From the NCBI RefSeq assembly GCF_002288385.1, contig NZ_CP016783.1:1-64000 (forward strand): a stretch of DNA of 64,000 bases, read 5' to 3'. Below, piece by piece: positions 53,860 through 56,215 of the stretch. The position numbers and the translations under genes were made by a program. The notes below the pieces were generated by a model. The model searched no databases. It saw only the letters and a list, made by a program, of their open reading frames with translations, and was not told where the DNA came from. This DNA is from Candidatus Planktophila lacus. Lineage in GTDB: Bacteria; Actinomycetota; Actinomycetes; Nanopelagicales; Nanopelagicaceae. Numbering within the stretch: the stretch's first letter is position 1; each line of letters begins with the position of its first letter.

Positions 53860-54720
53860 TTAATCTTCGATTAAAGCAAGTAGCGCTTTGGAATAAGGAC
53901 TTCCGACATAATTTTTTGCTAGCGCAGAAAGCTGATGTTCAGAAATCCACGTGTTTCTGAAGGCTACCTCTTCAGGCGAGCCAACGAGCATTCCCTGGCG
54001 CGATTGGATCACCCTAACTAACTCGGCAGCGGCAAACATATCCTCTACCGTGCCAGTATCTAACCATGCTGTGCCTCGGTCGATAATTGAGTGGCTCAAT
54101 GAATTTTGGCGCAAATAAATATTGAGTAAATCTACTATTTCCAATTCTCCGCGGCTCGAAGGTTTAATTTCTTTGACAAAGTCACATACTTGAGAATCAA
54201 AGTGATAAATACCCGGGATAGCCAAACCTTTGTGGACTTCTTTCGGTTTCTCTTCTAGGGAGAGGATCTTGTCTCCATCAGTTTTCAAACTTCCAAACTT
54301 TGATACGTCATTAACTAAATAACCATAAATATGCGCACCTTTCGGATTCAAATTCTCACTAATTTTGTAGCCGATTCGACTACCGTAAAAAATGTTGTCC
54401 CCAAGCATGAGCAAACTAGGTTTATCGACAATCTTCTTTTCGGCCAAGGTAAAAACCTCGGGAATTCCATTCGCTTTTTCCTGAGAAATAAAATTTAGTT
54501 CTATACCCCATTGAGATCCATCACCAAGCAAATTCATAAATGAATCTGCTTGATTGGGAACGGTGATAATACTAAATTCACGAATTCCTGCGGCCATCAT
54601 CAGCGACAAGGGATAGTAGATCATGGGTTTGTCATAGATCGGCAGCAATTGCTTAGACGTTACAGTGGTCATTGGTCGAAGCCGCGTCCCATAGCCGCCA
54701 GCAAGAATTAGGCCATACAT
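53860..54720 (-). CDS. rmlA: glucose-1-phosphate thymidylyltransferase
   Basis: RmlA makes dTDP-glucose from glucose-1-phosphate and dTTP. The 286-residue protein shows LILAGGYGTRLRPMT with the catalytic Arg, SKQLLPIYDKPMIYYPLS, LMLGDNIFYG, and GTAWLDTGTVEDM near the end, all diagnostic. A longer frame overlaps the divergent rmlC gene; the ATG at 54720 is right for the family and has TACTAT six bases upstream. No SD. Downstream genes GT61 and the fringe-like gene form its operon. Confidence 0.95.
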   Translation of the reverse strand: MYGLILAGGYGTRLRPMTTVTSKQLLPIYDKPMIYYPLSLMMAAGIREFSIITVPNQADSFMNLLGDGSQWGIELNFISQEKANGIPEVFTLAEKKIVDKPSLLMLGDNIFYGSRIGYKISENLNPKGAHIYGYLVNDVSKFGSLKTDGDKILSLEEKPKEVHKGLAIPGIYHFDSQVCDFVKEIKPSSRGELEIVDLLNIYLRQNSLSHSIIDRGTAWLDTGTVEDMFAAAELVRVIQSRQGMLVGSPEEVAFRNTWISEHQLSALAKNYVGSPYSKALLALIED

Positions 54721-54725
54721 GGTGG

Positions 54726-54732
54726 CATAGTA
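54726..54732. promoter_or_regulatory. symmetric bidirectional -10 for rmlA and rmlC
   Basis: CATAGTA contains CATAGT on the plus strand (seven bases before the rmlC ATG at 54739) and TACTAT on the minus strand (six bases before the rmlA ATG at 54720). The two hexamers overlap by five bases. Only 18 bases separate the two start codons, too few for SD-led translation of both. Confidence 0.6.
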
Positions 54733-54738
54733 ACGTCT

Positions 54739-55278
54739 ATGGAACTTATTGACGAGATGCCTTTTGAGCGTGGGCCTAAACTTTTTCAAAGGCAAGTTTT
54801 TTCGGATGATCGAGGATCATTTGAGATGCTTTTTCAAGAAACAATTTTTAGAGCGCATTTTCATGATTTCCCCCATATTAGACAAATTAATGGAATCAGA
54901 GCAAAACGCGGTGCGTTGCGGGGATTTCATTCATCAGAAATTAACGTTAACCATTGGAAAGTTGTTACTTGCGTAAAGGGAAAAGTCCTCGATGCAATGA
55001 TTGATTTACGAACAGAATCGGCTAGCTTTGGAAAAGTGCGATTTGCAGAGATTGATGAAAAAAGTGGACTGAGTCTTGTAATTCCTCCCGGGTTTGGTCA
55101 CGCTGTCCAAAGTTTGACTGAAGACTCATTAACAATTTATGGAACAAACATCGAGTATGAAAACAATAAAGAGTTCGAAATAAACCCAATTGCTGGCGAC
55201 TGGAGCCTAAATTGGATACAACCAACTATTCTCAGTGAGCGCGATAGAATGGCACCCGAATTAAGCGAACTTTACTAA
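54739..55278 (+). CDS. rmlC: dTDP-4-dehydrorhamnose 3,5-epimerase family protein
   Basis: A 179-residue cupin of the RmlC family. The catalytic His lies in GALRGFHSSE (canonical RGLHxQ), followed by KVVTCVKGKVLDAMIDLR and VIPPGFGHAVQSL (canonical PxGxAHGF). The altered second motif leaves open a 3-epimerase or 5-epimerase with a different product. The ATG starts seven bases after a -10-like CATAGT. rmlB follows after 16 bases. Confidence 0.85.
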   Translation: MELIDEMPFERGPKLFQRQVFSDDRGSFEMLFQETIFRAHFHDFPHIRQINGIRAKRGALRGFHSSEINVNHWKVVTCVKGKVLDAMIDLRTESASFGKVRFAEIDEKSGLSLVIPPGFGHAVQSLTEDSLTIYGTNIEYENNKEFEINPIAGDWSLNWIQPTILSERDRMAPELSELY

Positions 55279-55294
55279 AGATTAAGGTCAGGGA

Positions 55295-56215
55295 ATGAAG
55301 TTAATTGTTTTCGGTGGAGCAGGTTTCATTGGATCGGAATTTGCGCGGCAAGCGGTTCATTCCGATATCTTTAATAAAGTGTCCGTTGTAGACGCCTTAA
55401 CTTACGCCGGTAATCAAGAAAATTTACGCGATATCTCGAATAGCACAAAATTTGATTTTATTCACGCGGATATCCTTGACTCTAAAAAGTATGAAGGATT
55501 GATTGACTCTGAAACTTTTGTTGTAAATTTCGCGGCAGAGTCTCACGTTGACCGTTCAATTGAGGACCCGCTTATCTTTGCCAAAACAAATTTTATGGGA
55601 GTTTGCAACCTCCTAAACACATGTAAAGAAAAAGATTCCGCTAGATTCATTCAGGTTTCCACGGATGAAGTTTATGGACCGATGCCTGAAGGTACTGCTA
55701 ATGAAACATTCACACTCAACCCAAGTTCCCCTTACGCGGCCTCAAAGGCGGCTGGAGATTTGGTAACTCTTTCATTTTGGGCTACGTATAAATTCCCAGT
55801 CATGATTACTAGAGGTGTTAATACATTTGGACCACACCAATATCCAGAAAAATTGATCCCACTTGCTCTTTCTAAATTGAAAAATGGTGAGGAAGTACCA
55901 ATTTATGGTGACGGGAGCCAAACACGTGAATGGATTCACGTATCAGACCATGCGGCAGGAATTATGGCAGTTTTGCTAAAGGGTCGGATTGGAGAAATTT
56001 ACAACATTGGAACCGATCATCGGTTAACAAATCTACAAGTGATACAGATTTTAAAAAACCAATTAAATATCGATGAAAATTTAATTAAGTTTGTGGAAGA
56101 TAGAAAAGGACATGACATTCGTTATGCGTTGAATAGTCAGAAAATTCAATCGGAGCTAAATTGGTTTCCAAAGAAAATATTGGGCCAAGACTTCAGTGAC
56201 TTTAGTAATTGGTAA
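55295..56215 (+). CDS. rmlB: dTDP-glucose 4,6-dehydratase
   Basis: RmlB converts dTDP-glucose to dTDP-4-keto-6-deoxyglucose. The 306-residue protein has the NAD motif GGAGFIGSEFARQ, NFAAESHVDRSIEDP, the catalytic STDEVYG, YAASKAAGD (YxxxK) and TFGPHQYPEKLIPLA. It is 20-30 residues shorter than common RmlB, mostly at the C-terminus. Start ATG has a weak AGG-type SD (CAGGG). No rmlD is nearby, so the final sugar may not be rhamnose. Confidence 0.93.
   Translation: MKLIVFGGAGFIGSEFARQAVHSDIFNKVSVVDALTYAGNQENLRDISNSTKFDFIHADILDSKKYEGLIDSETFVVNFAAESHVDRSIEDPLIFAKTNFMGVCNLLNTCKEKDSARFIQVSTDEVYGPMPEGTANETFTLNPSSPYAASKAAGDLVTLSFWATYKFPVMITRGVNTFGPHQYPEKLIPLALSKLKNGEEVPIYGDGSQTREWIHVSDHAAGIMAVLLKGRIGEIYNIGTDHRLTNLQVIQILKNQLNIDENLIKFVEDRKGHDIRYALNSQKIQSELNWFPKKILGQDFSDFSNW

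Follow-up and report, generated by a model that had tools for sequence, protein, structure and literature searches.

A short gap between divergent rmlA and rmlC genes as a candidate two-way promoter of leaderless messages

In the window, as we call the whole 64,000-nucleotide stretch of Candidatus Planktophila lacus DNA analysed here, the start codons of the head-to-head genes rmlA and rmlC lie 18 nt apart. A first-pass annotation had proposed that a single 7-base core drives both as leaderless genes. The coordinates bear out the 18-base separation, and the letters are exactly as described there: CATAGTA (54726-54732) holds TACTAT for rmlA and CATAGT for rmlC, with 5 bases in common. We consider it fairly probable that the gap is one bidirectional promoter, from which leaderless rmlA and rmlC mRNAs are predicted to be made. 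The sequence shows the geometry and a clade-wide leaderless -10 signal at 6-7 nt, and points to selection on the length and core of the gap; transcription in both directions, and the choice of hexamer serving rmlC, are what we infer.

Genes and letters of the locus

The features of the locus, in window coordinates, are:

53860..54720, minus strand: rmlA, glucose-1-phosphate thymidylyltransferase family, 286 aa (TIGR01207 323 bits, cut-off 361; PF00483)
54720-54718, minus strand: rmlA ATG
54721..54738, no strand assigned: intergenic gap, candidate bidirectional leaderless promoter core, GGTGGCATAGTAACGTCT, 18 nt in 3/3 homologous pairs
54727..54732, minus strand: rmlA -10 hexamer TACTAT, 6 nt before the ATG, the spacing preferred by the clade
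54726..54731, plus strand: rmlC -10-like hexamer CATAGT, 7 nt before the ATG, weak, with C first
54728-54733, plus strand: alternative rmlC register TAGTAA, register uncertain
54739-54741, plus strand: rmlC ATG
54739..55278, plus strand: rmlC, dTDP-4-dehydrorhamnose 3,5-epimerase family, 179 aa (TIGR01221 92 bits, cut-off 156; PF00908 above cut-off)
55283..55288, plus strand: TAAGGT, possible separate leaderless promoter of rmlB, 6 nt before its ATG, from motif statistics
55295..56215, plus strand: rmlB, dTDP-glucose 4,6-dehydratase family, 306 aa (TIGR01181 359.9 bits, cut-off 365.1)

Both start codons facing the gap are well placed, since RmlA opens with the motif M-x-G-x-x-LAGG and the RmlC starts are exactly collinear in three homologs, with an F..GP motif 8 aa in. 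The window has a single instance of an rmlA start followed by an 18-nt gap with ANNNTA and an ATG, and 0/100 shuffles have one. A scan with the sigma-70 consensus returned no promoter at the gap, as expected of promoters that rely on the -10 element alone.

RmlA, RmlC and RmlB all score under their NCBIfam equivalog cut-offs. The pathway runs in the order RmlA, RmlB, RmlC, RmlD, which rules out the earlier description of rmlA and rmlC as consecutive steps: RmlA takes step 1 and RmlC step 3, with RmlB between them. No RmlD above the family cut-off was found in the genome of the window (G000), and L-rhamnose is thus not assured as the end product of the set. Directly downstream of rmlC, with 16 nt between, rmlB may be a leaderless gene with transcription of its own from the predicted TAAGGT promoter. 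The surroundings form an island of variable surface-polysaccharide genes at about 40000-64000 of the window, where GC falls to 0.38-0.41 from 40 kb onward; genomes G028 and G079 carry a DedA-like protein 100% identical to that of G000 and different rml genes.

A predicted core read in both directions

Bidirectional promoters, a class defined by two divergent start sites 7-25 bp apart (the window start codons begin at 54720 and 54739), most commonly separate their start sites by 18 bp, and also by 10 and 23, the 18-bp spacing arising because it sets the -11A of either strand opposite the -7T of the other (PMC10268837, PMC12825309). In E. coli, about a quarter of them sit between divergent genes and yield an mRNA in each direction (PMC12825309, PMC10268837). 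The symmetric -10 promoters described by Warman, Grainger and colleagues resemble the window gap in their overlapping -10 bases and reciprocal -7T/-11A; they are defined by mapped start sites, however, whereas the window promoter is predicted from sequence alone. Furthermore, none is described as leaderless in the portions of those sources available to us, whereas in the window the whole gap would be core and both products would start at start codons.

The leaderless side has its own precedent. Leaderless genes of Actinobacteria lack a Shine-Dalgarno (SD) sequence and have TANNNT about 12 nt ahead of the start codon (PMC3160421, PMC3898074), which is how the window resembles them, and closely juxtaposed divergent promoters are called common in Mycobacterium tuberculosis (PMC3160421, PMC3898074), where prpD is leaderless, as is the regulator divergent from it (PMC3898074). 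In the passages available to us, the two -10 elements are not described as one shared heptamer, and the window differs also in its weak rmlC hexamer. We found no report of the leaderless and bidirectional features combined in this lineage in the literature searched. The gap is best regarded as a further, well-supported example of known bidirectional -10 promoters and of the known actinobacterial leaderless habit, not as a new mechanism.

In the mechanism we propose, RNA polymerase would recognise a single AT core of 7-8 bp whichever way it faces. Transcription would begin no more than one base from each start codon, so that the minus-strand product is a leaderless rmlA mRNA and the plus-strand product a leaderless rmlC mRNA. 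The start predicted for rmlA is 54720 and that for rmlC 54738, or 54739 if the discriminator is one base longer; the reciprocal -11A/-7T pairing is exact for 54720/54738 and one base off if rmlC starts at the A of its ATG. All three homologs have the same A and T at gap positions 7 and 11. The -10 element of rmlC has two candidates, CATAGT with a spacing of 7 nt and, in the relatives, TAsTAT with one of 5 nt. The first-pass annotation further expected two operons to compete for one polymerase, which is not to be expected at basal activity: at five E. coli bidirectional promoters, competition appeared only once one direction was strongly activated (PMC12825309).

The rmlA direction follows the habit of its clade. 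Before the ATGs of divergently oriented genes in stretches of five family genomes, TANNNT peaks sharply at spacers of 6-7 nt; in G000 it stands at spacer 6 in 18/63 cases and at spacer 7 in 8/63, with 0-3 at any other spacer, and SD-like sites are few (9/63). Spacer 5 has no general TANNNT excess in the clade. At 17 of 30 family rmlA loci, a TANNNT stops 5-7 nt short of the ATG (counted by eye), which together with the spacing peak indicates that leaderless rmlA recurs in the family and is not peculiar to the window; at those loci where a divergent partner is seen, it is mostly rmlB, not rmlC, and the gaps are larger, roughly 25-160 nt. In the window, rmlA has the features of an actinobacterial leaderless gene, with TANNNT ending 6-7 nt before its start and no SD sequence. 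For rmlC, which also lacks an SD sequence, the hexamer CATAGT departs from TANNNT, and the gene falls outside that description; we propose it as leaderless on account of spacing and conservation, not of the motif.

Conservation of the gap and the rmlC direction

The rmlA/rmlC pair is rare. Protein searches with RmlC in 135 genus genomes, and with both proteins in 296 family or order genomes, found it only in G000 and G016. A DNA pattern scan over one genome for each of 84,980 species, with the gap fixed at 18, matched an actinobacterial metagenome-assembled genome (L204), which has rmlA/rmlC, and Marmoricola sp. Leaf446 (L197), which has rmlA/rmlB; the other ten matches were set aside, as ORF length and comparison with RmlA, RmlB and RmlC gave no convincing divergent partner. 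A degenerate-peptide scan with RmlC across genome contigs gave no match, nor did a scan of viral contigs. L204 shares with the window the order rmlC, rmlB and a GT4-type gene. The Marmoricola locus resembles the window in its head-to-head rmlA and 18-nt gap, here with a perfect TANNNTA core (CAT-GGCCCTAAGGTACGGCGC-ATG), and differs in that the partner is rmlB, not rmlC, and both hexamers fit TANNNT.

Comparison of the gap among related strains, which the first-pass annotation had suggested as a check, gives 18 nt in 3/3 pairs, the only three known: GGTGGCATAGTAACGTCT in the window, GATGGCATAGTATCGGTC in L204 and GGTTGAATACTATTCCTT in G016. The length in L204 is not independent, as the pattern fixed it at 18; that in G016 is, the pair having been found by protein alone. 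Amino-acid identity to the window RmlA and RmlC is 57% and 40% for G016, and 63% and 52% for L204. Identity at fourfold-degenerate sites in the genes on either side is 18-32%, a saturated level, and despite this the three gaps align pairwise at 13/18, 10/18 and 10/18 identity with no indel, so that both length and core look selected. Eight gap positions are invariant (1, 3, 5, 7, 8, 9, 11 and 12), all of them in the core or towards rmlA; three of these, 7, 11 and 12, had been fixed in the pattern that found L204, yet the window and G016 also have them in common. Of the six bases adjoining rmlC, the number is kept and the sequence is not. We conclude, from these three alignments, that the gap is probably under selection in length and core, and some of the core conservation could come from the rmlA promoter alone.

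In an alternative arrangement, the core would serve rmlA only. The rmlC promoter would then lie further upstream, within rmlA and antisense to that gene, and genome compaction would explain the short gap. It would account for the eight invariant positions, all within gap positions 1-12 and mainly on the rmlA side, and for an rmlC hexamer that is off-consensus and whose -11A/-7T symmetry comes free with the rmlA hexamer. Against this, all three pairs keep a gap of exactly 18 nt while their silent sites are saturated, rmlC has no SD-like sequence at working distance, and reading by eye found no plus-strand TANNNT within 40 nt upstream of it. We consider an rmlA-only core unlikely.

The rmlC hexamer CATAGT matches TATAAT at 4/6 positions, and its A2 and T6 are forced, because they pair with T6 and A2 on the rmlA strand; the sole independent base, the first, is an off-consensus C, and we therefore rejected the hexamer as independent evidence. 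T stands first in 128/197 of the A2/T6 hexamers, the remainder being mostly background by estimate; in the CATAGT register, none of the three homologs has T there, and G016 has A. Two bases downstream, in a register 5 nt before the rmlC ATG, TAsTAT is present as TAGTAT in L204 and TACTAT in G016, and the window reads TAGTAA. The claim that both genes are leaderless from one core is thus supported for TACTAT before rmlA and for a symmetric core well placed for both genes, and is weaker where CATAGT is named as the -10 element of rmlC, since T is lacking at the first position and two of three homologs instead have TAsTAT two bases downstream.

These letters could also be read to mean that the relatives are bidirectional through TAsTAT at gap positions 8-13, within an ATAsTAT palindrome, and that in the window a change of the last T to A has left the rmlC direction weakened or dead. 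The three hexamers are in keeping with such a loss; spacer 5, however, is not enriched in the clade, the window keeps CATAGT at spacer 7 with -11A and -7T, and small departures from TATAAT permit divergent initiation (PMC10268837). A lost rmlC direction thus seems quite improbable to us. With a bidirectional core as the preferred reading, rmlC transcription from the gap is likely, given the conserved spacing and the lack of an SD sequence or alternative -10 element nearby; the rmlA direction is well supported and probably the stronger of the two in the window strain.

Shared-core divergent pairs across the family

Gap spectra were drawn from samples of six genomes that together cover about 2.4 Mb (L030-L049, L069-L148, L209-L228). 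As the gene caller misplaces some starts, and moves that of rmlA by 120 nt, all in-frame start pairs were used with a null of shuffled gaps. At a gap of 23 nt, a leaderless -10 element stands on both sides in 9/16 pairs, where shuffled gaps lead one to expect 0.12 (Poisson P about 1e-14). With orthologs removed, seven independent gene pairs are left. The shared core is ANNNTANNNT, with spacers of 6 and 7. Other gaps, 44 and 50 nt in particular, are also above the null, with -10 elements that do not overlap and several orthologs among the pairs. Two examples are:

20578/20602 of the window, head to head: VTT-domain (DedA-like) gene and GH32 glycosidase gene, 23-nt gap ACCTAGAGGATAAGGTACGCGCC with core ANNNTANNNT
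L263 of G000, just before C1:1306687, head to head: two genes that we take from sequence recognition to be nth and crp, 17-nt gap with a perfect TANNNTA, GCGAGTAAACTACCCAC

The first gap stays at 23-24 nt in the other GH32-bearing relatives read. The second, of the 18-bp class like rmlA/rmlB of Marmoricola, is 17-19 nt in the genus, and roughly 40-120 nt with separate -10 elements in other genera.

That such gaps recur in the same family bears on a further explanation of the rmlA/rmlC core, a short AT-rich heptamer fallen by chance into a small gap, with no shared promoter function. TANNNT is indeed weak, expected at 1 in 64 of positions, but the gap is kept at saturation, a conservation that already largely refutes coincidence, and leaderless positioning is clade-wide. 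Chance is, in our judgement, very improbable.

We lean slightly towards the view that shared-core, leaderless divergent promoters are systematic in this streamlined family, with gaps set by -10 symmetry at 17-19 nt (TANNNTA) and 22-24 nt (ANNNTANNNT). Fixed start-codon gaps as a systematic device of the family, which we regard as partly established, are of more interest than the single locus. Where both messages are leaderless, the distance between start codons equals that between transcription starts, and promoter symmetry becomes visible in the bare genome. If the view is correct, two-way promoters could be recognised in the genome sequence itself, with no need of transcript maps, and bidirectional promoters could be catalogued and traced through evolution in uncultured lineages without RNA data. 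Shared-core pairs with spacers 6 and 7, and so a 23-nt gap, number 9, and those with spacers 6 and 6, at 22 nt, number 2, although spacer 6 is the commoner.
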